A stretch of 64,000 nt of DNA from contig NW_006768771.1 of assembly GCF_000204055.1 (NCBI RefSeq), positions 871,766-935,765 of the forward strand, in the 5' to 3' direction. Of the stretch, positions 3,990 to 58,848 are shown in pieces (position 1 is the stretch's first letter; the number at the start of each line of letters is the position of its first letter). Both the position numbers and the translations under genes were made by a program. The notes below the pieces were generated by a model. The model was not told the origin of the DNA. It did not search any database and worked only from the letters and a program-made list of their open reading frames with translations. The DNA is from Melampsora larici-populina 98AG31. Taxonomy: Eukaryota > Basidiomycota > Pucciniomycetes > Pucciniales > Melampsoraceae.

Positions 3990-4967
3990 AGATTACTGAG
4001 ATACAAAATACGACTTGCTTACGTGCGCAGAGTGCAACGATTCCTGATCGCACAAGGTGATGATTAAGGGAAAGAAAAGGTAAAAAACAAAGCTTGGGTC
4101 GATAGGAAGGTTGATGAGGTATTCAAAGAATTTAATGAGTGTTATAATTGGACGAATAGTGCTCATTCAGTTTGATTGCACACAAATCACGGTATCTAAG
4201 TACCTTGGGTTTCACAAGCAACACGCTCGTGATAAGCCAATCAGCGAGTCTCGACAGCCACCGACACCTGCATGTGATGATTTTGGTGAACTTTTGCTGG
4301 CATCCATAGGTGATGTTGAACGGATCTTTGAGGTTCAAATGAATTTCGTGACTACCTGTAGGATCTCACTCTAATGTATATTTATTCATGGAAACCAGTG
4401 AGAGATTTCATATGTTGGACATGAAGGGGAACCAATGGGGGATATATACGCTCCTATATGAGCAAAAATTCATCCATCCATTGCACCAAACTGGTGCGAT
4501 ATTGAAATACTTTCACATCCAGCACAAAAACATGGTGTGCCACCTCGAAGAGAAAAGTGTAGCGAGGCCGCCAAGTAGGTACAACACTTCTATACTCCAC
4601 AGAAGATCATGACAACTTGACTATACCGCATAGTTGAGTCAGAAGCCTTGTTTCTTGGGATCTTTGGTCGACTCATATAACTGATGATCAACCTCTTGAA
4701 CATCTGCTGAGGTGGAAATCAAATGTCCTTTGTGAGTGCGACATGTAGATCAAAAGGTGGTGCATGCATGCACTTTCGTGTAGCGCCGGCCTATGCATGT
4801 CGGGCCTGCTGGCTACTTCCTCTGGACGGCATCCTCCATGGATCTCCTCCTCGCCATTCTTTTGGCTGTGATCACACACAATCCTCAATTTGCTGAAAGC
4901 TCTGATTAAAAACCGCACTCATCGATTCGATAGTCTTAAGCTGTTGTGATATTCACAGTGTCATCAA
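3990..4967. other. Divergent intergenic region
   Basis: Lies between the minus-strand cupredoxin gene and the plus-strand methyltransferase gene, so it should hold both promoters. I see no clear TATA box and no supported gene. Confidence 0.4.
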
Positions 4968-6140
4968 ATGAAGTCGTCTGACATCCAGCAACTTTCTCAA
5001 CCATTGCCGTCTCATCGGACGAAGCATCTCAAGCACTTACAGTATAACCTCTGGCCACCAGTTCTCAAGCCTTCGTACAACTCCGTCCAGTCACCCACGG
5101 TTCACATTTCACTTCTTCAAAATGATAACTGCGGCTTGTCGACTGGCTCAACCCTATGGCTAGGTGCTCAAGTTGAGTGAATGTTTTTGTTTGATGTTGA
5201 CACACCGCTACGCGAAGCATAGATTTAAGCCCAATCTTCAATCCCCAGAGCCGAAGGTCAATGTGAACTGCTGATCAAGGGTGTCGGTGTACTGACATTG
5301 AGATTTGATGTGTATGCTCGAATCCAGGTGCTGTCCGCCTATCTTTTGTCGCATGTGCCAAGCCGGACAACGAGGAAATGTCAATCCAGATGTGCTATAG
5401 AGATTGGAGCAGGAACAGGTATGATGCAGGCTTGAACTACTTAAAACAGATTTGTCACTTGTAATTTCTGACATGAAATCTTTTTCATTGCAATAACCTC
5501 TTGATCACCAGGTTTGATGTCGATTACTCTATCCGCCCTTGGGTACCACGTCCTGGCCACTGATATCGAGCCCTCGTTGACATCGATTTTGATGCCAAAC
5601 GTCAAGGGATGGGTATCAAGCAGCAGCGCTGAGAGTGGGCCACTGTGCGTCGGCCGACTGGACTGGAACCTTCCAATCAATTACCGCACAATTCAATCAT
5701 GTCTAAACTCTACCCTCGAACCTGGATACCTTCAAGATGTCCTTATTGACCTAAATCAAGATGATGATGAAAATGATCAAGACATAGGGCTTGAAAGCAA
5801 GATTGAATTTGATTTGATCGTCACAACCGATACCGTCTACACCTCCGAGCTTTTAAGACCACTACTCATGACTCTCAAAAACCTATCAGACTCATCAACT
5901 CGACCTCCACCTATCTATCTTGCTCTCGAGCGGCGGGATCCGGCTCTAGTAGAAAGTTTCTTCAAGATGGCAGATCAGTTGAATTTCAAGGCTGATCGGA
6001 TTGATCATAGCAGCCTGGTCAAACTCACTGAACAAATGGGGTGGGAATTGGATGATTGGGAAGGGGTTGAGGTGTGGAAGTTGCGTCAGAGAGTTCAAAA
6101 ACTCAAAGCTAGACACGTCTCTGGGACCACACCAAAATAA
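4968..6140 (+). CDS. METTL21-like protein lysine methyltransferase (Methyltransf_16)
   Basis: Exons 4968-5171, 5328-5418 and 5512-6140 encode 307 aa. The seven-beta-strand methyltransferase core is complete. The pre-motif GSTLWLGAQVLSAYLL spans the first intron, motif I is AIEIGAGTGLMS and spans the second, and motif II is LATDIEP. A post-II stretch DLIVTTDTVYTSELLRPLL matches the DxxY-type acceptor region of this family, and YLALERRD follows. Family members methylate lysines on translation elongation factors, chaperones and similar proteins using S-adenosylmethionine in the cytosol; the substrate here cannot be read from sequence. An acidic insert (QDDDENDQD) lies before the DLIV motif. The first 5' splice site is GTTGAGT, not GTRAGT, and recurs in two other genes of this window. 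The first ATG in the exon was used as start; the N-terminal 45 residues are not recognisable. Confidence 0.82.
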
Positions 6141-7580
6141 AATATCTTTGGTTGATGAGTTAAAGAGATAGATGAGTAAAGTGCAAAATTGCTTGCACAC
6201 CTTTCCCAATTGTTGTCTGACTACCAATAATTTGTTGAGCTATTTGTTGTTCTGGCAGCAAAAACCAAGCATGGCTATTTCTCCTTGAATTTACTGCTAG
6301 AGAATATCTTCCATCATAATAAGATGTTTGTAATCATGAACTCCAATTACGATATTTGCAAGCTGCATCATACCCCACTTCAAGAGAAAATATATAAAGG
6401 TCCTGTATGATGTATACTTTTCATTTACCAACCGTTTTTGTAGCACCACTCTTCACTGCATACCTCATTATTGTACTCGCAACCCCCATAACTCAATGCC
6501 GGTCAAATTCATTTGTTGCTTGAGATTCTTTCGAAGATGAAAAACAGCGCAGACATCATATGAACTACATTGGTGCTTTATGGCCCCTTTAAGAGTAATG
6601 TCAGGGCAGGATCTCATACTTCACACACACGATTCAATACCAACCACTCAGCTTACTCTAACATCACTTTGGTCAGGTTGTGTTCAGAGATTTTACCAGA
6701 CATGTGTTTTGGTACTCCACCCACACCATTTGTCTCCATTATCACATCTATTGTATCTCCCTTATTGAGGTACTTCTGGACTTTGAAGTGTAACCCTTAC
6801 ATAAACCACATCTCTGCTGTCCTTTTCATATCTTCTTTGGTTTCTTATGGTAGATAGTTGTTTTGGGCTTTCAACTATCTCCATTTTATTGTGTTAGAAA
6901 CATCTAGTTTCTTTTTCTGCACGTCAGGTAAGAACCAAGATATCTTGAGCTTATCGAAACTCAGATCATTTATTTTCCTTGCCCTTTATGATATTGATGA
7001 GATTAACTTGTGGCAAAATCTGCAACCTTGATGAATTTCTGTTCATGAGAGAGTGCAATCACACATCTTGATTCTGACCTCTAGGCCGTTCTTGAGGCCA
7101 GGTGTTCCAGAGTCCAGAGTCAGACTCCTCTTCTGCGTTGTACATATGTACATCAATACTAAACTTGAGAACTGTAATAAAAGAACACGGTCGGAACAAT
7201 CGGCGGCATATGCAGTACAAGTATAAGGCTACAGTCTAATAGCAAGAGCTGTATGATGACCCCATTCAAAAATCAATGAAGTCATCGGGTGAGCTGTGGT
7301 GTTACTGCTGCGATCGATCCGAGAAATATATCTTGGAAGAGTTTAAAAAGCAAAGACCTGTTTACCGATCATAATTACCAACTCACTCCAAACCACTATC
7401 TCCACGGAAAGAAACACTTGACTTCTTCTGATTGGGGTTTGATTATCATCATACCTAGTCAGTTTACTTCTTTCCTATCATCCCAGCTATGTCGGTCCAA
7501 TCCCATCACACACACATCCATCACTGGCTTCCGATCATCCTCACAGGTCTCCCTCTGCCACACGTAGTGCGAGTCGAGCG
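6141..7580. other. Intergenic, promoter region of GND1
   Basis: No gene supported; frames here are short and random. The last 100-200 bp are pyrimidine-rich (CTCTTTC, TCATCACACAC), as expected just upstream of a highly expressed fungal gene. Confidence 0.4.
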
Positions 7581-38871: not shown

Positions 38872-39788
38872 CTAGAGAAGTCTGAGTGTTATGATTTCAA
38901 ATGGTGTCTACAAACAGTGGATGTTCTTACCCTTTATTTAGCTAATTCTAAAGCTCAAGTCAAATCTGAAAGGTTTGATATTCACTTCTTTTGATAGGTC
39001 TCCTTTCACAAAGCTCTAATGTCAATAGATTGCTTGAAGATTAGAAATTCAAATATCATAGGAAATTGACAGAAATCAAGATGATCAATGGTTCAATATC
39101 TCATTCACTTCATCATCACTTGTAATGTAAGCATGGTCAAAAAGCTCAAATGTCCAGTTAACTTCAATCCCAGAAGTCTATCCCAAAGGAACCTGCTCAT
39201 GACCATGTTGAAAAACTTGGTGTGAATCATTGAGAATGGATTGTCATCAACAATTATCAAGAGGATCATACATATGTGAAGTAGTGAAAAATGTTGTAAC
39301 TGAAAATTGTTTGGGAGTAAGTTCAACTGTATTTAATTTAAACCTCTCTTCTCAAAGTATCTTTCTGATTTCTTTCTTCTTTTATTTGTTTTTTTAAATG
39401 ACTGAAAATAAAACTAAAAATAACAAAGATATGTATTGTGATCAATCAACCAAAAAAAGTATTAACTTGATTTTTAAAATGTGCTAATGACTCTGATTGT
39501 AATGAAAAAATGTAGAGAATAATATGTAATTTGATATGTATTTCAATTTAAGAATTATAATAATGGTTCTAGAATTTTAATAAGAGGTTTGGGTTTAATA
39601 TTTGTTTGTATTTTTTTTGATTGTTCTAATTAAAACATAAAAAAATTAATCCAAATGGTGAATCTAAACCTATGTGTACTATAATGAAAATGATGAAAAA
39701 TTGATTTTTGGCTTTAAAAATGAACTAAATGAAAAATTAAATGAGTCATAAAATTGATTTAAGATATGTTGGAGTGTGAAGTTATAAT
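38872..39788. other. AT-rich intergenic stretch
   Basis: No gene supported. Composition drops to very AT-rich from 39340 to the left end of the large transposon. Confidence 0.45.
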
Positions 39789-40152
39789 AGGGCAGTTCAA
39801 GTTTGAGATTCCGAGCAGTTGAAAAAAAGGAAGCGAGCAGGTTTTTAAAGACACAAGCACGCGTAAAAAGCCTGCTCGAATTCCTTAAAATGTCGTAAAT
39901 ATAAGTTACAACACCTTTGAGACAAAGGCACAAATGAGTCCAACAGACATTTTTTTTTGCCAATGCTCAATGATCAACCATGAAACCTCAATCTCTCTCC
40001 ACTGGTACAGGGATCGGACTCAGAGCCAACTTGATTTCTGAGTGAAGAGGCTCCACATCTCAGCCTTACATCATCATCATCATCATCTTGGACCAGAACA
40101 CCAATCGAAGTAAATCAAACCTCTCCTACCTGAACCATCTCGAATCAGTTCG

Positions 40153-41556
40153 ATGCCTCGAATGTCAGAACGAGCAAAGACGCTCCGTGATCTCACTGAC
40201 CTGTGTATCTTTGCACACGCGGAATCGCCCCTTTCACTACCTGGGATAGATGGAGCCGAAGACACGGAAGATTTTCCCACTGATGGCAGTTTGTTCTACC
40301 CCGACAATCCTGAGATGGCTGAACTCTACGATCACCTGTTTGACAGCGAAGATGAATGGGCCGAATGCCTTATGTTGGTTTCAAACACAAGATATCTGGT
40401 CCCACGATTTCGCGCTCCTCTAGCCAGTCCCTTCAATTTAAACGACATGTTATGCGATAGACGTACTGATTTTCAACAGGCTATGAGAACATCTCCTGAG
40501 GGCTTCAACGCCCTTCTTGCGTTGATAGAAGACCACCCAGCTTTCTTTTCATCTAGCCGGAATCCACCACCACCTATTGAACAACAGCTTGCGATCACCT
40601 TGGAGCGCTTAGGCAGCAACGGAAATGGTGCCTCCGTCGGTAGATTTGCTCGAAACTATAAAGTCAGCCGTGGAGCTATCATCAACTGTACACGCCGGGT
40701 CATCAAAGCAATCTTAGATCGAGGCAAATCTTACCTTCAATGGCCAAACAGCAAAAGGCGTAAGGCCATCTCTCATGTACTCGACGCCAAAGGCTTTCCG
40801 GGATGTGTTGGGTTTGTTGATGGGACAACTATCCCCTTATTTCAAAGACCTGGAGTTGATGGAGAGGTGTTCTTCGATCGGAAGCATAGATATTCCATCA
40901 ATGTCCAAATTATCTGTGATTGTGATCGAAGAATCACTTACGTCTATGCTGGGTGGCCAGGATCATGTTGTGATAGTACAGTGTACAACAAAACCAACAT
41001 TGCCAACAATCCAGATAAATACTTTGATGAAGGTAGGTTTTTTGACCTCCTATCCGCGTGATTCATACTGACTCATTCCTATTCATGTGTTTCAGGCCAG
41101 TACCTCATCGCCGACTCTGCGTATACACCAACCAAGACAGTTGTCCCATCTTACAAAGGGCAAGCTGCAGAGGTTAGCAGGAATCGCGACTTCAACTGGT
41201 GCGTAGCCAAAGTACGAGTATGTAACGAGCACTCCATTGGGGTTTGTAAGATCCGCTGGGCCTCACTACAGTGCTTACGCCTAGCATTGAACAATCCGGA
41301 AGACATGGCACACATTCTAGATTGGATTCGGGTTTGTGTGATACTTAATAACATGCTCGCAAACCTGGGAAATGCGTGGGATGATATTGCACAAGAAATC
41401 ATCAATAATGAAATTGATCAGCCAGCTGTCACAAATTTGGAAGACATGGATTTAGATGCTGATGTGGTGGAGCGCGGAAGAGCAATGAGGGAATTTGTGC
41501 GTGATCATGCTGTTGCTTACAGCTGGCAAAGTGGCGTCCTTCCCATTATCGATTAA
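40153..41556 (+). CDS. PIF/Harbinger-like DDE transposase
   Basis: Exons 40153-41032 and 41096-41556 encode 446 aa without lesions. The N-terminal half holds a helix-turn-helix (QQLAITLERLGSNGNGASVG, then RFARNYKVSRGAIINCTRRV). The catalytic domain has the first Asp in GFVDGTTIPL, the second in LIADSAYTPTK, and a Glu in CNEHSIGVCKIRW, the order and spacing of Harbinger nucleases. The first exon ends GAT GAA G and the intron is 63 nt. The start is an in-frame ATG 364 bp inside the left terminus of element A. A fragment homologous to residues about 55-120 survives at 58570-58848 in element C. Harbinger nucleases usually need a Myb-like partner; candidates are at 42825-43481 and 51791-53086. Confidence 0.9.
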
Positions 41557-42095
41557 AATTGTAGCTCCTTTTTGTTTTCATGTTGAAGATGTGTGTGGGA
41601 ATTCCAATTAATTGCACTTTTTGTTTGTTCAATAAAATTTTATTAAACTTTGAAGCGGATTATTGAATAGTTCTCTCTCAAAAAACTTTAGTAACTGATG
41701 ATACCTATTGAATAGTTCTCTCTCGAAAAACTTTTGTTTAATGCTTCTCAATCTCGAAGTTCATGCAAACAAAAAAGATTCATTTCGAAACGTTTTTTTG
41801 ATTTACAAAAGAGTCCACTCACAAAAGAAGAAAGGAAATATACATTTGTTTTATTTTTTAATGAAGTAGAATTTTTTTATGTTTCAAAGTTTTTGTAATG
41901 AAGCAGAAGATTTTTTTTCGGATTTTTAAACTTTTTGCACTCTACACTAAGTGAAGGAGAAAAAAAGTGGGCGTCTATGGAGTAAAAATTTGTGCATTAT
42001 TCTAAAATATCCTTGAATAATGACCCTGAGCAATCAGATTAACTAGGTGGTGGTGATTTCAGATGGTGATTGGATGTTGTAACATAACACATGTT

Positions 42096-42660
42096 TGATT
42101 TGAAAAGTGGTGATTGGCTGATTTTGATTGATTGCTTGACTTGAAAGTTTGAAAAGTGGTGATTGGGTGATTTTGATCGATTACTTGACTTGAAAGATGA
42201 GACCGAAAACGAAATGGTTTTGCAGCAACTAGAAGAGGAGGGTGAATGTTGTATGAATTCGCTTTTTTGACTTGATAGATAGGTTGAAACAGTGATGTGA
42301 TTTCTAGAATCACTAAGGAATTCGATAACTTTGATTTGATGTTTCAGTAGGTTGATTGTTTTGAAAACTTTGATTTTTGTTGTGATTTGTCTTGAATTGA
42401 TGAAATACCGGTAAGGAAATAATGAAATTGATGATTGGAAGATATTAAAATTGACTGATTGAATTCGAAAAACAACACCGGTAAGGAAGATACTGCAAAG
42501 TACGAATGCGGGTTGAAGTCTTGAATTGATGAAATACCGGTAAGGAAATAATGAAACTGACTGATTAAATAATAAAATCGACGATTGAAAGATAATAAGG
42601 TTGACTGATTGAATTCGAAAAACAACGCCGGTAAGGAAGATACTGTAATAAATAAACTGA
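42096..42660. repeat. Duplicated blocks in element A
   Basis: Two tandem copies of a block of about 50 bp (TGAAAAGTGGTGATTGG...TTGACTTGAAAG) lie at about 42096-42200. A second block (CTTGAATTGATGAAATACCG with GTAAGGAAATAATGAAA) occurs at about 42391 and 42520, and another (GAATTCGAAAAACAAC(A/G)CCG) at about 42462 and 42611. The copies differ by a few bases. They lie between convergent genes. Confidence 0.75.
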
Positions 42661-42824
42661 TATACTGTGATAAATAAACTGATTGATGACTAATGAATGA
42701 GAGCAAAAATAATAGTTAAAATCTTGAAGTGATGAAATAAATAAAAAACGATTGAAGACTTTGACAGGAGAATCAAATCAAAACTGTTCAAATGAAATAA
42801 AAGTATCAAAATCAGAAAAGGACA

Positions 42825-43481
42825 TCATCTGGATATAAAGAAGTTCGGCAAACCTTGGCCATTGGGCTCTTTGGGAGATATCTCGCTATCAGGCTTCGGG
42901 GGAAAGATGATATTTAAATAATCTAGAACTTCTTGTGGTGTCTTGCCTGCTAAAGCGAGGTCTTTTGCTAGTTGGTTTCTCTCACGTCGTTCAAGGGCAA
43001 TGGCCTCTGCAGCAGCTGTTTCCTTGGCTTCTTGGCGCTCGAGGTGAAACTTCTCTCTGCTCCAGTCCAATTCGGTCCTTAATTCGAGTTTGGCTTGCAT
43101 TTCCTTATCTTTCGCTTCATTGTACTTCTTGTCCTCGAATTCGTGTCGCCAGTCTGAATTTTCCTTCAGGATATCCATCTTCTGTTGGCTTCCACTTTGA
43201 AGAGCTGATGCTAGAGGATGCTTGAAATCCCTGGTTCGAACGTTTGCCGGATCAATTGATGGTAGAGGATCCAAGCCGCGAGCAGCCAAAGTTTTAGTAG
43301 ATGACTTTTGGCGACTTGAAGCGGCAGAAGGTTTGCGATCTTTGCTGGTTGATTCAGCCTTCGCACTCGGGCCCTTTCTGCGGCGTACAGGCTTTTTTTC
43401 AGTGGTCTCATCGTTATCAGTGCTGTCTAATGCTATTTCAGCTGCTGTGAGGCCTTTTTCCTTAATACACCACGAACCCAT
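42825..43481 (-). CDS. Transposon-encoded basic coiled-coil protein
   Basis: A frame of 218 aa from ATG 43481 to 42825. The first third is basic and disordered (KKPVRRRKGPSAKAE); residues about 95-175 form a charged helix (MDILKENSDWRHEFEDKKYN, then ALERRERNQLAKDLALAGKT); the end is IIFPPKPDSEISPKEP. This is the layout of the C-terminal half of Myb/NAM-type partner proteins in Harbinger elements; no Myb domain is visible. The gene probably has an upstream exon in 43490-43770, where a minus-strand frame (NPRADWPPTGVQ, GPAEVWGVIG) looks coding, but I could not fix the junction. Confidence 0.6.
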   Translation of the reverse strand: MGSWCIKEKGLTAAEIALDSTDNDETTEKKPVRRRKGPSAKAESTSKDRKPSAASSRQKSSTKTLAARGLDPLPSIDPANVRTRDFKHPLASALQSGSQQKMDILKENSDWRHEFEDKKYNEAKDKEMQAKLELRTELDWSREKFHLERQEAKETAAAEAIALERRERNQLAKDLALAGKTPQEVLDYLNIIFPPKPDSEISPKEPNGQGLPNFFISR

Positions 43482-44283
43482 GAAACTGGTTGCCCAACCT
43501 GGGTGGAATCACAGTTGTGTAACCGTTATTGCTGGCAGGCATGCAGCGTTGAGAAAACGTGGAGGTCCACTACCGAGTCTGACCCGCTGCTATTGGTTCT
43601 GGTTGCAGAGCAGCTTATTGATGGTCACTGTGCCGATCACTCCCCAAACTTCAGCAGGACCAGGGATTGCAAGCCCTGTGTTAGAGCCTCTGACCACGGG
43701 TTGCACTCCGGTTGGTGGCCAGTCTGCACGTGGGTTTATTCTGAAAGAAAGCAATCTTCACTGTGGATATTGAATTTCTATCCCCGTTTGCTTGCAGCTT
43801 GCATTTAGAAAGCGATAAAACACAACTAATTGCACATGTCTGATTTTCAAACAAACAGATACAAAGAATTCAAAGACAAAACGTAAATAAAGGACAAGAT
43901 TCAAAAGAGAGAAACGTCAACATAGAGTCAATGTGGGAGTAATTGAGAAAAACAAATGAAAGTAAATGGAAGACAGTAAAAACACAGGCTACTTGAGGAA
44001 AGCATACAAGAAAGGAAAGAAAATGAGTGACAAACAAAGAGCAGATAGCTTAAAAACAAGATTCAAAAAAGAGAGACTTGTACAGAAATTTGATGTGAGC
44101 AAAATCAAGCCAATCCTGAGAGAGGAGACAGTAAAAACGCAGGCTACTTGATACTTTAAATGAACGTAGAGAAAGAAGACAATCAAAATAAGGGAGACAG
44201 AAAATTCAAAAGTCGATAAGAAAACAAGTGACAGACAGGATAGGATGACACAAGATCACATGCAATACAAATCTAACACTACC

Positions 44284-46570
44284 TCAAGCATTGAAATCTT
44301 GATAGTCCTCTTCATCCTCTCCTAATGCATCCCCAAAACTGTCTTCCATTTCGTACATGATGGCCTCAATTTGCTCCTCAGTAGGAAGTGCAAAGGAAGT
44401 TGCTTCCTGGAGTTGACCAAAGCTCAGCTCCCCATCAATTCGATCGTAATCAGATTGCAATGCTGCCAGGAAAAACCTATTTGGAGCAATAGAATAAATC
44501 AAAATGATGAAAATAGAACAAACAGGAAAAACCCACGCGTATCGATAACGTGTGGACTTGGTACGTAGATATTCCAAACGGCCGTCCACAACATTCCAAA
44601 AGGTCTTATTATGGTAGTCACCGCGATTTAAGCCCCAATGGATTGCCTGCATTCTCTGAGGTAATCAAAAAGGCACATACAATCCGCATACATCAGCACT
44701 CATTCATTTTGAAGCGGAAATGTATGTAGATGTACTCACAAGCCACGCATATCGACATTTTTGGAGCTCACTGACAGCTTGGACAATCTCCTCCCTGAAC
44801 CGGAACCGACCTCCAATGAGACCTTTCTCTTTCTTCTTAAGCTACCAAAAAATAACGTCAGATGTCTCAGCTCATATTCAACAAACAAGCGTACTCACTT
44901 TGACAATTATGATTTCAAGTTTTGGGACTTTTGCGCTAGAGCGTGTGGCAACTCGGTTTGGGAGGTTGATGCCAGTGAGCAACTTGAAGATGTCAGAGAA
45001 ATCCAAAAGATCAATAATAAGTTGAACTGGCCAACTTACTATCTTTTCAAATGATTTTCTAATTTCCTTCAATGCGGTGTTGATCAATGAGCGGAGTGCT
45101 GTAGGAGCTCCGGGGTCTGGATCTTTACCGTAACCTGGGGGCAAGAGTCTGTTTTTCCACTCAGAGGGACTTGAGAGGATCTCAGACTATCACTGGGGTT
45201 AGTAGCGTATTAAATCGGGTTGAGACGTCTGTGGAGATAGATCACATACCAAGACTTTTGCATATAGGGAGTGAGGGAGCTCATCTTGATTCCCATCTTC
45301 ATCCTTATCTTCCTTTGCAGTATAAGCTTGCACATCACCAGCCAAAATACACGAATATGCGATCTGTTTAACACATTGCTGCAAATACTTGATCAGTTCC
45401 AGAAATTGAATTTTCCACAGAAGAAGCCGTACTTTAAGCTCAGTTCCTCCCTTCCAGACTCCTAAATTCGATTTTGGAATCATATTCTTCAGCTCTTCAG
45501 TGGCGTGCAAGATTTCATCTCGGGCCACGTCAATTTCTTGGCGAGCACACAGGACAGATACCATGGTTGCAAGGAACTGGTCTTGTGCATCCGTTGCCTG
45601 GTCACAAGTCCAAAGAAGAAAATGAATTCTGAGTAATGTATTACAAACCAAACATGTGAGGGAGGAATTTAATGAACACTTACGTTACATAACTTACGGC
45701 CGAGTGTTGTATGCTCTGCATCAAGATTTGCACGGTACGCCAATGCATTGAAAGACTGGACCAAACTACCAGCCATGTGGCTTGAAGGGCGGGTTTCCAA
45801 TGATCCTGACACAGGTGGACGAGCAGTAGGACGAATGGCTGAGAGTTGACCTAAGGCTAAGGCAGATTGGCGATTTGAACCTAAGCCGGACTGGTGATTC
45901 CGAGTCGACCTGTAGTTGTGGCCATTGTCTCGATTGCTGTTGCTGTCATTTTTGTGGCCGTCATTGTGGTTGATGTTTTCGCAATCATTGCTCTCATCAT
46001 CGGATTCGGGTTTGGCAATATAATCATCATCATCTTCATTCGCATCATCCTCATGGTCAGAAGACTCAATGTGATCGTCTTGGTTGTTAGCAAAGAGTTC
46101 ACCATCATCTTCTTCAACTGTTTGATCAGAGTTACCATCAGCTACTGTTGTAAATTGTGCAGAAAGAGGAACATACAGGGAGACTTGGGTTTGATAAACT
46201 GTTCAAGATCAGTTTTTCTCAAATGAACGCTGTTTGTACTCGGACCAATTTCTTTTCTTTGCGGTCGGATGTTTGTTGTGCTGCTGCGCAGTCGACGTAA
46301 AGTAGGCCTTGGAGGCTCTTTTGGAGGTGGGGTAGGCCGTGCTGTGGTTCTAGCCTGTGTTGGAGGTGGGGTAGGTCGTGCTGTGGTTCTAGCCTGTGTG
46401 GGAGTTGGGGTAGGTCTTCTCAAAGGTCGTTTGCTGGTTTGAGAACTGGGGTTTTGATCGCGAGGAGGAGCAGGAGTCGGACGTTTGCAGGGTCTGGAGA
46501 CTTCAGGACTGGTTGGTGGATTTGGGTTTTGTTCTTTAGGTGGAGCTTTAGCTTTGCGTTTTTTCATCAT
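44284..46570 (-). CDS. Transposon-encoded 606-aa protein, unknown function
   Basis: Eight exons (46570-46177, 46117-45684, 45597-45250, 45186-45040, 44982-44899, 44841-44740, 44655-44537, 44476-44284) join in phase. The N-terminus is Pro/Arg/Lys-rich with short near-repeats (PTPPPTQARTTARPTPPP). An acidic and Asn/Asp-rich zone follows (DHEDDANEDDDDYIAKPESD). The second half looks folded and helical (ATDAQDQFLATMVSVLCARQ; LRSLINTALKEIRKSFEKI) and ends LEYLRTKSTRYRYAFFLAAL with an acidic tail. I do not recognise a domain. Basic, acidic and helical parts in a row suggest a DNA- or transposase-binding accessory protein; that is inference. Its gene has the same orientation as the CMC-like transposase upstream, 600 bp away. 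The first intron is 56 nt; a 32-nt alternative was rejected. Confidence 0.7.
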
Positions 46571-46780
46571 GGAATGCAATGAGTGATTGGGCGTTGGTGA
46601 AGTGAAGAGTTTGAAGTTGAAGGTTGGATTCAAGCCACAAGACGATCATCCAAAGACTCATTTGGAGATGTCACTCCTTTGTGACAGCTGATGTGTGACA
46701 TCATTTTGTCACACCTCATGTTGTTTGAATATTTCGAGTTTTAACATGTTGTGATTGATTTACAGTATTTTGCTTTTATC

Positions 46781-46855
46781 TCAAGCGGTCGTAGTTTAGT
46801 GGTATAAGCTAGTGACTAAGAAGAATGTCCCTGGGTTCGAATCCTGGGCTTGGAG
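46781..46855 (+). other. tRNA-like sequence with pol III A and B boxes
   Basis: TAGTTTAGTGG at 46792-46802 matches the A box and GGTTCGAATCC at 46834-46844 the B box, at tRNA-like spacing. The D arm (GTTT/AAGC) and T arm (two G-U pairs) can form, and TCAAGC near the start can pair with GCTTGG near the end. No anticodon stem forms in the middle (CTAGTGACTAAGAAGAATG). It is a decayed tRNA or the head of a tRNA-derived SINE inside element A, not a functional tRNA. Confidence 0.55.
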
Positions 46856-47177
46856 CATTTGGATTGAAAGGAAAACTGGAGTCCCCGGACTTGTCTCAGA
46901 CCACATCAGCTCACATGCGCCAGGGTATCATGGATAGCATCTGCATAACTTGAAGTGTACTCCATTCTTTTGTTGATGTTTTATTAAATCGCTCTTCTTA
47001 TTGCAAGTTGTGTGCTTTACACTTTGAATTTTTTACTAATTTTATACTTTTTTCAGCGGGCTTGGTTAAAAAATACTTGTGTTTTTTTATTAAATCACTC
47101 TTCTTATTGCAAATTCATGTATGGAGTTTAGGCAAAAGCATACACCCAATTAATCACAAAAATACAAAAGGAAATAT

Positions 47178-50100
47178 TTATGCAGAGGGGCCAGCAACCG
47201 GAAGATCAGGTGAGGATGGTGCTGGTGAGGGTGTGGCGGACAGAGAAGCCTCTGAATGTTCTGCTTGAAGCTTTCGTTTCTTTATTCCTCGCTGCAAGAG
47301 TCCTGTGCGAAAAAGTCTAGCCTTTTGTTTTTCTCGCTTTTTCTTATTCAAGTCTGCTTTTTCCAGGTTAGATTCTGCCCAAGTGTCAATTCCCACCTTA
47401 ACTGCATCCGCCCATTCACGAGGGGAGATCTGATGAATTGGCAACTGTGCCCAATACCGATGCAGCTCGGCTGAATAGAACGCTGCAGAATTAAGGACAT
47501 ATTGATCGTTTTGGACATGGACCACAGCAAAGTCCATGACTTTGGATACCTGCCTTTCAATTACGGTTGGTCGAGTCTTTTCAACAGAACATTGGCTCTT
47601 ATTGCAATTGTGTTGCACGTTGAGTAGTCCTTCGATATCCTAGACAGGGCAAAAGGGATTCAAGTGTGAGTTATATCACGGTCAACAGTTAAAAAAACTT
47701 GTCAATTTACCTCAGGACGGATCCAGATAACCTTGTCAGTCTCCTCAATCTCTCGCATATTATAGAAACTACTGATATCTCCTGAACAGCATTTGGTTGC
47801 CTCAACTCTGGTTTGGCGTAAATCACAAGCTCCAACACCCCAGACCCTTTTAACACGAGCTATTGTCCTTCGGTTTGCTGTTTTCACAGAGACAAAGACA
47901 CCTTTTTCAACTTTTTGTTTGTTTTTCAAAGTGAGTCCAGTGAGAAGATGCCAATCCTTCTGTGTAAACGAATTGTATATTGTGTCTGGCACAATATTAT
48001 CTGGATTTGATGGTTGATCCGCAACAATATCTATTGAATTAAAACCATTAAAAATAGATTGATTGAAAACATGAAAGAATCTTGTTGTGGAGTTGACTCA
48101 CTTCCAACTTCAATATTGTGCTCGTCATTCCATGATGAGTTATATCCCAAGGCTCTTTGAAATAGAACATTAGTTTCAAAAATCTTTCGAACTTTTACAC
48201 TGGCTCGTAAGTATGTTCGTGATCGCTTGTCGTACAAGATTGTCCCTGCTGTGACTGCTCGCATGAGGCCGGTGTTGTTGAATGAATTCGAAATATCTCG
48301 ACTTGGACTGAGATGATTCGAATGAATTGAAGAGTAGCGGGTATTACCATTAAAACTTTCGAAATTTTCAGTACCAAATAAGAGCGCCGGGCCAAATCGA
48401 TCAATTGAATCACACAGGTGGATGAGCATATGATACTTAGGTTTATTGCACCATTGAGCCGACATCCTCACAATTGATGTAAGAAATGATTCAATATGCT
48501 GTTGAAGTTCGCGGAGATATAAATTCATATTACTGATCTCTGTCTGAAATATGTAAGGCGCCAGTAGAGAAATTGAGCTCCAGGTAGCACGCTCTTCCTC
48601 TGACAAGTCACATTCAAAAAATATAAATGGAGCCGCTTGAAGGACAGTGCGAAACTCTTTCCCATTGAGACTTAGAAAGTGTTGGATCATGGTCTTTGGT
48701 TGTATTGAAGGGATGTTGAGGCCAGAGGTATTAAAGGATCTCCAACGGCCACGTACACTGTCCTTTTCGCGAGCCGAGAGCTTCTTCATCTGATGTCTTA
48801 GGAGATACTTTACAACTCCCAATAGCACGACATGCAAGATCTCAACAGGGGTATCCTTGTGGCCGTCGAAGCCTGCTCAAGGTAATATTGAAAAATGATT
48901 AGTTATTTCTAAAAAAGAGAAAGAGAACATGATAAATAACAGAAAACTAACCATTCAACCGCAAAAATGGATTGAACAGACGTTCTCCAAAATCCTTGTT
49001 CAATTTCTCGCAGAAAACAGAAATTTCGTCATGTGAGAGCGAGGAGTCACGTAGCGCAGCCTGAACCTGCTTGACAAAGCACATGTTCAGTGTGTCTTTT
49101 AAACCTAATCTAGCTGATTCGGTTTCAAATAATCCAAAAGTTCCTGGACGCTGAGCAATTGCCCAGAGGTCTTTGGAACCCTTGATTGTTTGTTCCCAGT
49201 TGCGGCGGGGTAGTGAGAACTGTATGAAACAGACAAGAATCCATTAATTGCGCATGTAAATCGTTGCAGAAAACTTCAAACCAAGCTGACTTTATGACCA
49301 GACTCATCAATTCCAAGGAAGTTGCAAACATATTTCTCGGATTTTTTGTCAACCATTGCATGAACCTTCAAGTTACAAACTCTGCAAGGTGTAAGAGAGC
49401 TTGTTGGATTCAAAGTATTTGTGACCTCTGCGTGCATTGGAGAATCTCCTAAGTGACAGAGTACTACAGGGACTACAAGAACTTCGTTTTGGATCTTGTG
49501 ATCATATGCCACAAAACCTTCCGTACTTAGATGGCTATCATTTACTCAACAGACACATCAGCTAAATGCAGTTGGTTCAAGATGTTCTACTGTATCCTTA
49601 CTTACTTCAAAGATTCAATCAACGGATCAGCAAGTTCTAGTGCACCAGCCCTGTTTGAGGTTGTCAAGAAATGACAATTATATTCTTGGTTTGCCAGTTT
49701 TGGTGGCAACCCAGCTAAAGTGAAATAAAATGCTATATGTTTGTTCCATCTTTTGGAAATATTTCCAGAGAGATCATCACAGTATAGTACCAAAGGAACA
49801 TGGCAGATGATACGCCCACCTGCTTTTTCGCGCCATGGGTTCTTCAAGGGAACTCGGGTGAAATTTTCTCCAGATTGCTCTGGAAAAAGGTGAATTATGA
49901 ACAATAACCATGAAAATTGCCCAACATCGATGAATACAACATACCAAACATTTCATGTCCACAATGATCCTTCAATAGATCATCCTGATTTACTTCAATC
50001 TTATCAAACTCCCTCCAAAAATCTTTGACATTGATTGAGGATGAAAGATCAGAATCAAAGGTCGAAACCAAGGGGAACTCGATTCGAACCTCAGGTGAAC

Positions 50101-51179
50101 CAGCAGCATGGTTGTCTTGATATACCGGATTTGCAAAGACACACTTTGCAAATATGTCGGCACCACAACGGTAGAAGAAGACAGGAACAACAATCAGCTT
50201 TGATTGTAGTTGAACCGGCTCAAAAAGGTAAAAGTGCCCATGTGGTTGTTCCACCATTTGAACACGTTGGTCTCGATTCATTTCCTCACGCCATCTCTTT
50301 GATTGCGCTAAACGATCCAATTTCTCGTTTGGAGTAGGGAGAACTGGGATGAATTCCAGAAATTCTCTGACAAATGGATTTCCAAGTTCCTGCTCACGAT
50401 GGAGGTCATTATCAGGAACCACTCTCAACAGTAATTCAAACTGAAACTACTGGATGACTTGCCTGTTTCAGAATTTGCTCCACTTGCCGAGAATAGCACA
50501 GGGTACCAAGTGGACTTGAGGTCTCCGAAATGTTGAAATCATAGGTCTTCTTCAGCTTACGGCGACAGTTCTGTAAGCTTTTGTATCCGGGAAGCTTCAC
50601 ATCAAGGAGTGCGACAAAGGATCGCACTCTTTCGTATTGAAGCATGGACATCAGTGTCCTCGCAGAGCCCAAAATCAACAGGCCAACAAGTTGCTAAAAA
50701 ATGATAAGAGCAAGTCAGAACAAGGTCAGACAAAGTGCAAAGCGTACACACACCTCAAGACTCGAAAACGGAGCCCAGGTGGAGGCATCTGCGTCGATGA
50801 CTTCGTCAGAGTTGTCTCCGTCTGACTCTGATGCTTGGCTCTCAGAGTCTGGACCAATTGGGGCGTCTTGGCTGCTGTTGTCGCTCAAGGATGGTGTTTT
50901 AAACAAAGATGTATGGTCTTTTGTCCACATTTCAATCAATGTGCGACGGCGGCGTTCATCCTCAAGTGGATCGGCGGCAATTTCCACAGCTGCATTGTTG
51001 TAAGCTTCCTGATCGGCCATTTCGTCAGTCATATTTACGTTGTCATCGATATTGGGGCTTGGTCGCAAAGGTGAATGATTGGAAGTTTGGGTGATGGCCT
51101 TTTTGCGTGCGAGCCATTGATTGAAGTGTCGCTTATGTGATGGTCTGTTGCGATGATTGCGGATCGATGTGAACTTCAT
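47178..51179 (-). CDS. CMC/CACTA-like fungal transposase, 1146 aa
   Basis: Nine exons (51179-50754, 50693-50463, 50389-49945, 49879-49606, 49525-49282, 49219-48952, 48872-48102, 48030-47711, 47639-47178) join in phase with no lesion. I recognise a large family common in basidiomycete genomes. Likely catalytic motifs are VLYCDDLSGNISKRWNKH, VVLCHLGDSPMHAEV and GTENFESFNG, each with a conserved acidic residue, comparable to the Asp/Asp/Glu of Tnp2-type CMC transposases. LTPCRVCNLKVHAMV may form a zinc knuckle, and EILHVVLLGVVKYL and WCNKPKYHMLIHLCDSI lie before the last motif. The N-terminus is acidic. The last 250 aa hold two further conserved blocks and a basic stretch (KKKREKQKARLF). Intron 2 has a GC donor (CAG|GCAAGT), chosen because it restores the family reading QILKQ-ELGNPFVREF. 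Superfamily placement is by motif only. Confidence 0.78.
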
Positions 51180-51790
51180 CTTCTTGCCACCAGGACAAGC
51201 GGTACAAGAGAAGAAAGTCTCGTCTTCTTCTCCTCCAGGAGAACACTCGACAAAGCCTTCCTCAAGGATTCAAAATCAGCCTGCTGTCGATAATGCGAAT
51301 GAATCAAGAGTTGAATTGTTTACATTGTTCTACCATTGCTGATGGATTATAAGTTGATTCTGAGTCAGGCAGTGAGTTGAATGTAATAAATTTAAAAATA
51401 AAATGACTGATTGGAAAAATGAGCGCTCATCCTTTGGTCGAGGGTACTTTTAACGCACCAGGACTTAGCCCGCGGGCAGCTGAAAGCTAGCGGTTGTGGA
51501 CCACCAATCCATCCGCTGTTCAGAAAACTAGCGGGAACGTTTAGCATCATCGCGGCTTTGCACATGATGTGGTGAAATCAAGTTGTACATATGGAAATCC
51601 AATGGTTGAGGTGCGGAGTCTTATAGCCCGTCTGTACAGCCGGTACTCCGATTGGACTGTCGCGGGGTTTCACCTGGGTTTCACTGGTTAACTTTCACAA
51701 CCCCTTGACAGCGGGTTTTCAACAAAAAGTGACTTCGTGGTGTAAATGGAATCAAACAAAGAGAAGAATATAAATATATAAATGAAAATA
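51180..51790. other. Spacer between two minus-strand transposon genes
   Basis: No gene supported. It should hold the promoter of the CMC-like transposase and the 3' end of the Myb/SANT-like gene. Confidence 0.4.
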
Positions 51791-53086
51791 TTAGTAATGA
51801 AAAAAATCAAAAGGGATTGAAAGGATGAATGTGTATCTTACCATTCTACTGCGTTTCTTTTGTGAAGAACGTGGTGGCCCTTTGCCTTTGATATCTTCAA
51901 CATCTGATTCTTTGTCCTTATCTGAATAGGGAGTAAGAGGGGGTGGGAGGCCATCATCAGAGCTATCGTCATGGTTGCTTTCGATAGTTTGATGTTTTTG
52001 ATTGTCTTCAGAATCCGAAATGACAACCTCCTTTTGACAACCATGATTTCGAGATTTTTGACCATCTTCAGAATCTGAGACAATTATTTGCTTTCCAGCT
52101 CCAAAATCTTCATCTTCCTCGTCATCTTCATCTTCATCTTCCTCGTCATCTTCATCTTCCTTGTCATCGTCATCTTCCTCTTCATCGTCATCACCGTTGT
52201 CTTCATATTCAAAAAGTCCACTATCCATGATGCCAAATGCGTTGATGTTTCCTTTATCTTTGAAGAGGGCGTCCAGCTGGGCAAAACAAGGACATATAGA
52301 ATCCAGCTTTTCGGGCAAAGTCCAAATACCATGTTTATTGTCCTTTTCGTTAGTTCCAGAACCGGTACCCTTGTTCTTACGCTTAGCTAACATATACTTT
52401 CCTTTCCACCGCTCCACTCGCAGCTTGAGTTGACGACCAGTAAGTCTCATTCTTGTGTTGTTGTTTTGACGATTGTAATTGTTATTGATAGTACTTGCTA
52501 AATCATTTAAGAGTGTTTTCGGAGACATTGACTGTCCGGTGATCTTAGTTTTGCTACCACCACCAAAAAGTGCATTCCGGAAACTAGGACGATCGAGATG
52601 AGCTAGAATTTCTTCGTAGTCGGGTTTTTCCAAAGGCGGGCCTTTGTACATTGGGGGTTTTTGAGTTCCTCCTGAACCAGGAGTCGATTTCGATTTGGAA
52701 ATGCGTTTGGCACGAGGTTTTTGAGGTTTTCTAGTTGTCGATCCTGACTGATTTGGTGCTTTGGCGGCCGCAAGTGTTCTTTTAACTTCGTCAGGAGTAG
52801 TGGCACGAGGTATTTGAGCTTTTTTAGTTGTCGATCCTGAACCAATTGGCTGACCCGATTGATTTCGGGCTTTGGCGGCCGCAAGTGATCTTTTAACTTC
52901 GGCAGGCGTAGGCTTGCCCTTGCCTGTGTGTCCAGTGGCGGCAAGATCTGCCTGAAGCTGAAGTTGAGTCCGGCGAGGTGCACGGGCAACCTGGTGATGT
53001 TTCTGATGTCAGCGATCCATATCTGAGATTTGATTTGGGAAGATTGGAGGACTTACTGAACTAGCACGATTCTCTGATGTGGCCAT
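51791..53086 (-). CDS. Transposon-encoded Myb/SANT-like DNA-binding protein
   Basis: Exon 1 (53086-53057) reads MATSENRASS; exon 2 starts at 52990. Residues about 45-110 hold an internal duplication, VKRSLAAAKARNQSG and VKRTLAAAKAPNQSG, with identical GCGGCCGCC codons. Residues about 140-260 form a Myb/SANT-like domain (DYEEILAHLDRPSFRNALFG, then RQLKLRVERWKGKYMLAKRK, then GIWTLPEKLDSICPCF), followed by a long acidic run (EEEDDDDKEDEDDEEDEDED) and two SDSED boxes. Such proteins bind subterminal repeats and bring in the transposase. A strong donor GTAAGA follows SRM at 51842, so a last exon may exist; read through, the frame ends at 51791. Confidence 0.7.
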
Positions 53087-53200
53087 TGTTCAGAATGATG
53101 TTTTGATTCGATTGATTTCACTTAAATGAATTGAATGAAATGATTCAGATTGATTGATTGAGATTCGGATTGAGATTGAGATTCGGATTGAAATAAATGA

Positions 53201-53487
53201 ATTGAGATTGATCGAAAACAATTTGGTTGTAACTGGCTGATCAAGGATGATTCGGAAAGAGTTGGTGTGAAGAGGATGTTTTGAATGAATTGATTTGAAT
53301 GAATTGATTTGAATGAATTGATTTGAATGAAATGATTTGAAATAAATGGATTGAGATTTGGATTGAGATTTGGATTGAGATTTGGATTGAGATTCGGATT
53401 GAGATTCGGATTGAGATTGATCGAAAACAATTTGGTTGTAACTGGCTGATCAAGGATGATTCGGAAAGAGTTGGTGTGAAGAGGATG
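53201..53487. repeat. 78-bp direct repeat around a 12-bp tandem array
   Basis: 53201-53278 and 53410-53487 are identical (ATTGAGATTGATCGAAAAC...GAAGAGGATG). Between them lie tandem TTGATTTGAATGAA units and then GATTTGGATTGA units (about 53341-53410). The region is upstream of the Myb/SANT-like gene in the right subterminal zone of element A, where transposase-binding repeats are expected. Confidence 0.85.
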
Positions 53488-53559
53488 ATGATGGATGGAT
53501 TTGTAGAGTAGAGATTTGTAGATATGAGGATGGGATTTGAGGAGAATCAAAGGGATGAA

Positions 53560-53765
53560 GATAGGTAAGCGATGAGGATGGGATGAGGATGGGATGAGGA
53601 TAAGATGAGGTGATCGAAAGGGATACAGGTGATTGAGACAGGATATGAGAGGGTATGAGAGAGAAAGAGAGAGAAAAAGAGAGAGAGAGGTGATCGAGAG
53701 AGGGTATGGGAGAGAGAGAGGTGATCGAGAGAGGGTATGGGAGAGAAAGAGGTGATTGAAAAGGG
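53560..53765. repeat. Simple-sequence tract
   Basis: GGATGGGATGA units give way to a GA-rich microsatellite with repeated GTGATCGAGAGAGGGTATGG. Confidence 0.8.
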
Positions 53766-53992
53766 GTATGGGAGTCTCACCTGCTCCTACTTGCTCTCAC
53801 CGGATTTTTTTGAGTATGGGCCAAAGTACTTATAAATTATAAGATGGGCCAAAGTACTTATAAATTATAAATCATCGAGCCACCTCTAGAGATGGCTCGA
53901 TGGTCTTAAAACATAAGTTTTGTTTTAAGGACATCGAGCATGTCTTAAAACCTAAAAAAGTGCCTTAAAATTCAAACTTGAACTGCCCTAAT

Positions 53993-54519
53993 AGGGTGGT
54001 TCAAGAAGGGCTTTTACAGCCCTTTTTTATATTTTACATCATGTTCGGGGTCTGTAAATTTTGAGTAAAATTTTAAGGTTGTGAACCACCTTTAGAGGTG
54101 GTTCACGGTTTGGCGATCTTGTAATCAGCCTTAAATTTTTTAAATTCTGTCCCTGAATTTCCAAAAGACAGGGACAATTGAGCCAAAAAAAAAGAATTAC
54201 TTCCATTCTTTCTTTTTTTTGTTCCTGGATTCTGACAATTTTTGATCAAGAAAGGACCTCGTTTTCTTGTGTTTTTTTTTCTTGATGGCTTCCTCTTTCA
54301 TTAACAAAAAGTCTGTACAAAAACACAAGAAAACAAAAAAGAAAACAAAGCCAAAAAAAGAACGGTTGGGACTGTGTTCCTGAATTTACAAAGCTGTAAA
54401 ATGTAAGTTTACAGCATTCGCCGCTTTGCAATCAAGCTTTTTAAGGATTGAGCAACCTTAAAAAGACTGATCGCGACTCGGCGACCACGTGGCTCACGGT
54501 TCTCTTCTTGAACCACCCT
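53993..54519. mobile_element. AGGG-family MITE (element B, 527 bp)
   Basis: Inverted termini AGGGTGGTTCAAGAAG, flanked by AAT at 53990-53992 and 54520-54522. The left AAT is also the right flank of element A, so the two abut. A central palindrome GTGAACCACC...GGTGGTTCAC lies at 54081-54106. No coding capacity. Confidence 0.85.
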
Positions 54520-55064
54520 AATGTATTCAATATGTAATAAAAACTCCTGTTCAAATAATGGTTATCAATAATTTTCAATAATTGTGATTTTTTTTGATTG
54601 GTAGTAGGTACCATAATCTACTCAGCACAATAGGGCGGTTCAAGTAGAAAGTTGCGGACACGTGTGAAGAAACATCCCGAACAGTTTTTTTAGGTTGACA
54701 CTTCCTAAATTCCTTGTCTGCACTTTGACAGATGCTGTAAAGTTATGTTGTATGTCAGGGTGGCACTTACTTCAGGAGTTCTACTGGTAGACTTGAAGAG
54801 TAACTCTGACAAGGAATCCTATTGGGTACGTAGGATTATAGTAATGTATTTACTAGTAACGTAATAAACAACAGATTGGGTGTTAATTTATGAGTATATC
54901 CTCTACTAATTTATGTGAAAGGAAGAAGATAGCATCCACGGCCTACTGCAATTAAAGCAGGTCAAACTGGTCAGGTTCTAGGCCGGGGAAATTCTCAAAG
55001 TTATAATAAACCCCGAGTAGCCTGGGTATGTAACCGTAGGGATCTTGACAACTTCACATTGCAA

Positions 55065-58563: not shown

Positions 58564-58569
58564 GCTCAC

Positions 58570-58848
58570 ATGGACTCCAACCTACGTCTCCCAGGCCAAG
58601 AACCCAATCCCAACAATCCCACTGAAGGGGAGCTTCTTTTTGGCTACAATCCTGCATTGGCCATTTTGTATGATGAGCATTTCTATGAACAAGCACAGTG
58701 GGGCCAGTGGCTTGCCCAAGTGACCGCAAGACGCTATCTCAACAACCGTATCAGTGCCCCTTTACCTACACCATTTGACTTATGTGACATGCTCAGAACT
58801 CAACAAACTGATTTCTGCCAAGCCACCATTTTGAGTCACCACCTTTAA
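58570..58848 (+). pseudogene. Harbinger transposase N-terminal fragment
   Basis: A 92-aa frame aligns with residues about 50-125 of the transposase at 40153: GELLFGYNPALAILYDEHF against GSLFYPDNPEMAELYDHLF, and ISAPLPTPFDLCDMLRTQQT against FRAPLASPFNLNDMLCDRRT. The catalytic domain is absent. The apparent ATG at 58570 overlaps the MITE target duplication, so the original start is lost. Confidence 0.8.

Follow-up and report, generated by a model that had tools for sequence, protein, structure and literature searches.

A 14.2-kb unit in the rust fungus Melampsora larici-populina (positions 39789-53989 of the window, the whole stretch of 64,000 nucleotides analysed here) carries two unrelated transposase genes between one pair of inverted termini, which raises the question of which transposase moves it. 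A sequence-only reading of the locus had treated the unit as a single transposon with two transposases, and had named two alternatives, the insertion of one autonomous element into another or a stable partnership. The analysis shows that the unit is a nested pair, one transposon within another, and not a two-transposase partnership (probability about 0.96). The nesting is directly visible in two sets of ends, two target duplications and a sister copy that lacks the inner element, and also in a relative of the outer site that is unoccupied, the gene content of related copies and a second inner right end elsewhere in the genome (98.3 Mb in 243 contigs were searched). The unit is an ordinary case of nesting, well documented by these data, and leaves no puzzle as to which transposase moves it.

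The outer element and its relatives

The outer termini are 18-bp inverted repeats at 39789-39806 (+ strand, beginning AGGGCAG) and 53972-53989 (- strand). Their outermost bases are complementary at 18/18 positions and AAT flanks them on both sides (39786-39788 and 53990-53992), so that the matching termini and AAT duplications of the sequence-only reading were borne out. An unoccupied relative of the site was found on contig C19 (L050), where the left flank runs into a single AAT and from there into the sequence that is found, in the window, beyond a neighbouring MITE. The existence of this relative shows that the outer ends are not a product of chance. The 527-bp MITE (53993-54519) has ends AGGGTGGTTCAAG akin to those of the outer element, shares with it the AAT at 53990-53992 and is followed by AAT again at 54520-54522. 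As L050 reads through a single AAT, it follows that the outer element and the MITE both entered the same AAT. Counting the MITE itself and fragments, the genome has 53 matches to it, the best of the others being 96% identical, and matching AAT or ATT was seen at three of the four copies whose flanks were read (L056 is mismatched). Because its ends resemble the outer ends, the MITE may be mobilised by the outer transposase.

Further outer copies were sought by using each outer end as a query against the genome. Ten relatives with both ends read were counted (L021 to L032, of which two consist of two pieces); L033, L034 and L035 were excluded because each offers one end or a decayed piece only. 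When the window is included, matching AAT or ATT flanks 10 of the 11 copies with both ends. The exception, L027/L028 on C94, is flanked by ATT on its left side and by AAT on its right; its accessory-gene parts lie ∼ 5.4 kb apart, and it is perhaps a recombinant or the site of a further insertion.

The outer transposase gene lies on the + strand (40153-41556, exons 40153-41032 and 41096-41556) and its splice model encodes 446 residues that match PF13359 (DDE_Tnp_4) with an E value of 5.4e-27, as expected of a DDE transposase of PIF/Harbinger type and in keeping with the Harbinger-like gene first noticed on this strand. A transposase of this type was detected in all ten other outer copies (tblastn, E up to 1e-4). 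The search for further copies had been proposed with the concern that they might always lack the Harbinger gene; the outcome was the opposite, since the Harbinger-type gene is kept in 10/10 and the CMC gene is found in 0/10. Beyond the right end of the unit, 58564-58824 holds a decayed relative of the outer transposase gene (44% over 90 amino acids).

The duplications made by this element are not those of a canonical Harbinger. A Harbinger-specific 5'-TWA-3' duplication was looked for, and AAT or ATT was seen at every outer end read. In the parts of Han et al. (2015; PMC4482050) drawn on here, Pangu elements (PHIS) are reported in basidiomycetes and described with an ANT target duplication, terminal repeats of 11-40 bp beginning AG or GG, a DDE transposase together with a second ORF described as Myb/SANT, and an average length of ∼ 3.5 kb. 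The outer element agrees with that description in its 5'-ANT-3' duplication (AAT or ATT), in its 18-bp repeats beginning AG and in its DDE transposase, and it has a second, possibly Myb/SANT, ORF. It differs in being ∼ 5.9 kb long without the inner element, and in an accessory protein whose long C-terminal part is acidic and coiled-coil. Judged by its duplication and AG ends, the outer element thus fits the Pangu type rather than the canonical TWA Harbinger, and the lack of a TWA duplication is explained by the AAT/ATT duplications that this relative of Harbinger produces, as that source describes for Pangu.

The second ORF is encoded on the - strand in two places, a Myb/SANT-like part comprising the first two exons (51842-53086; exons 53086-53057 and 52990-51842) and a coiled-coil part of 211 amino acids that forms the last exon (42825-43460). 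Both parts are present in 10/10 other outer copies, with order and strand unchanged. They form a single stop-to-stop frame in L032 (626 aa) and L030 (576 aa), and the Melampsora americana protein P0121 aligns to both; a protein database search with the N-terminal part gave one match among the candidates scored, which were those sharing most words. Because a single frame joins them in two copies and P0121 spans both, the two reading frames are, on this comparison of frames, parts of one accessory gene. The Myb/SANT-like and coiled-coil frames of the sequence-only reading are therefore both present on this strand but not as separate proteins, and its five genes become four. The start codon at 43481, which gives the coiled-coil part the look of a gene of its own, falls within the end of the inner element. 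The Myb/SANT nature of the accessory protein has modest structural support.

The inner element

The intron between the accessory-gene parts measures 104 bp in the sister copy L021 and 8381 bp in the window, where it holds the inner element. L021 matches window positions 39788-43467 at 97% identity and 51743-53990 at 94-96% identity, and joins these two stretches directly, without the 8275 bases between them (43468-51742). At the junction L021 has a single TA, whereas in the window TA stands on each side of the 8275 bases (43466-43467 and 51743-51744). The stretch 43468-51742 is thus a separate insertion on the - strand with ends of its own, CACCACGAA and TTCGTGGTG, so that the first alternative, an autonomous element inserted in another, is upheld and the description as one 14.2-kb transposon with two transposases falls. 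L021 also carries an insertion of its own, unrelated and ∼ 1.6 kb long, in an accessory-gene exon (L021 about 4789-6414), with flanking duplications of ∼ 6 bp.

The last 1001 bp of the inner element recur on contig C93 (L037, C93:180563-181563), identical at 1001/1001 positions and terminating at the same base. The flank beyond this right end is a different one, again starting with TA, and the inward side runs into N after 1001 bp. A second right end in a different flank indicates that the inner element moved on its own, and this movement was probably recent. The inner left end was not found a second time in the genome search; as there is no second full-length inner copy, the left boundary is placed by the comparison with L021 and by a 9-bp terminal repeat.

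Two genes, both on the - strand, occupy the inner element, in agreement with the CMC-type transposase and second large gene first noticed there: the transposase gene (47178-51260) and a companion gene (44284-46570). Simple splice models, for the outer genes as for the inner, gave open frames, with splice sites checked in part; the freedom from lesions noted in the sequence-only reading is to that extent provisional. The spliced model of the transposase (1120 aa) wrongly skips an open stretch that holds the first catalytic D, and its length is therefore provisional. The companion gene accounts for the 606-aa unknown protein of the sequence-only reading, which has 625 residues in the simple splice model. 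Its recurrence beside CMC genes marks it as the inner family's second gene: in 29 of 39 CMC places (lower bounds) it lies downstream, on the CMC strand and no more than 10 kb away. In the remaining 10/39 of these lower-bound places the genome search gave no companion match within 10 kb. Between the two genes, a stretch at ∼ 46781-46973 recurs elsewhere at 81-84% identity. Its start looks tRNA-like by eye, and it is possibly a SINE, although ARAGORN calls no tRNA near 46790-46860.

At E up to 1, Pfam gave no family match for either inner gene model, and hence no TET/JBP gene was seen in these models. The affinity of the inner transposase was drawn from its homologues and their fold. Its closest relatives among proteins come from another rust fungus, Melampsora americana, with 69% identity at best. 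In an alignment of 24 homologues picked from 181 found, a C-x2-C motif is present in 24/24 and H-x3-H in 23/24; the second catalytic D is present in 24/24, the first D in 21/24, and E was counted in 20/24. Seven of the 24 have Transposase_21 matches in Pfam (best E 1.8e-05), which lie below the curated cut-off where this is shown. When the alignment was searched against the sequences of solved structures, a zinc-finger protein (E 0.027) was the sole match. The predicted structure of homologue P0001 (mean pLDDT 73.4) has the RAG1/Transib fold.

According to the portions of Kojima (2025; PMC12730594) used here, fungal EnSpm and ESTA elements belong to the CMCT clade, ESTA elements make TA duplications and rust EnSpm has a 3-bp target duplication. 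The inner element is like these fungal elements, as described there, in its CAC..GTG ends, its C(2)C and H(3-4)H signature and its RAG1-like catalytic fold. It has the TA duplication in common with ESTA, with the right side alone seen at C93, and differs from rust EnSpm in duplicating 2 bp (TA, at the L021 junction) and not 3 bp. On its TA duplication and CAC..GTG ends, the inner element fits the CMCT group (CACTA/Transib), with EnSpm and ESTA alike possible within it. Plavaka was considered and rejected, as it needs ends of TGT..ACA or CATCA..TGATG.

These observations are best explained by a simple order of events. A ∼ 5.9-kb Pangu-type relative of Harbinger, with its DDE transposase on the + strand and its Myb/SANT-like plus coiled-coil accessory protein on the - strand, first entered an AAT site. 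It was later invaded by a separate CMCT (CACTA/EnSpm-like) element of 8275 bp, which inserted at a TA dinucleotide, landing in the accessory-gene intron 7 bp from the 3' splice site and bringing its own transposase and companion gene. Each transposase presumably serves the ends of its own element. Splicing of the accessory gene over its 8.4-kb intron may still occur, and the outer ends could in principle still mobilise all 14.2 kb, with the inner part as passenger load. As in nested transposable elements generally, one element interrupts another with a target duplication of its own; there is no difference of principle, the insertion here being inside an intron.

Partnership or loss

The second alternative, a stable composite whose outer ends carry the Harbinger-type and CMC genes about as one unit, would agree with the presence of both gene sets within those ends and with outer ends and transposase frames that look largely intact, but it conflicts with the relatives, for neither the CMC nor the companion gene was detected in any of the ten other outer copies (tblastn, E up to 1e-4). 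It conflicts also with the inner element's own ends, with the TA duplication around it and with the recurrence of its right end elsewhere. The genome-wide distribution of the genes was examined by counting places, which number at least 52 for the companion gene, at least 39 for the CMC gene and at least 84 for the Harbinger-type gene. In these searches 70/215, 95/751 and 41/769 candidates were scored, and 102/102 companion, 114/128 CMC and 98/122 Harbinger-type matches were used, the rest being omitted by eye as further exons of places already included. By these lower-bound counts, a Harbinger-type place lies 15 kb or less from a CMC place in 2/84 cases, with ∼ 1 expected by chance, and such near-chance proximity therefore gives no sign of a partnership. 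Taken with the gene content of the relatives, this makes a stable composite highly improbable.

The two cases within 15 kb are the window itself and C8 at about 387102-391789; in the latter, the CMC and Harbinger-type places are 534 bp apart on the same strand. Elsewhere, on C12 (L033/L059, about 596360-606500), a related CMC gene, which has the companion gene too, directly adjoins with its N-terminal part the degraded right end of a Pangu-type element. This is a possible case of the reverse nesting, of which one side of the CMC gene is seen.

Transposons of this class can in principle excise by cut-and-paste, and the window copy might on that ground be ancestral, the inner element having been excised or deleted from L021; the single TA at the L021 junction, which bears no footprint, and the nine other relatives that likewise are without the CMC and companion genes and have both accessory parts in the same order, leave this with hardly any likelihood. 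The nested reading does not depend on whether L021 lost the inner element.

A predicted BAH-like region in the inner transposase

The inner transposase appears to carry an unexpected chromatin-reader-like domain in addition to its predicted RAG1/Transib-like catalytic part. In the predicted model of homologue P0001, the C-terminal region matches BAH chromatin-reader domains by structure and conforms to the BAH fold. The corresponding region of the window is encoded at ∼ 47400-48030 (- strand), and it is retained in 23 of the 24 aligned homologues, among them proteins of Melampsora, Puccinia and Phakopsora. The Pfam matches of the 24 homologues at E up to 10 include no BAH family. A search of the literature gave no report of a BAH-like domain in such a transposase, and the word BAH is absent from the main text of Kojima (2025; PMC12730594); by comparison with the elements as described in the portions of that paper used here, the C-terminal BAH-like domain sets the inner transposase apart.

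Tentatively, and with the odds against it, the predicted structure could point to a rust-fungus lineage of RAG1/Transib-like transposases with a built-in C-terminal BAH module, which would bind nucleosomes or methylated histones and so steer cutting or insertion, for example to silent, transposon-rich chromatin.

For the two families at this locus, the two unoccupied sites fix the target duplications as AAT/ATT for the outer element and TA for the inner. If it is real, steering by the BAH-like module would help to explain the insertion of the inner element within the intron of another transposon, and the presence of such a domain would make the chromatin targeting of a RAG1-like transposase directly testable.
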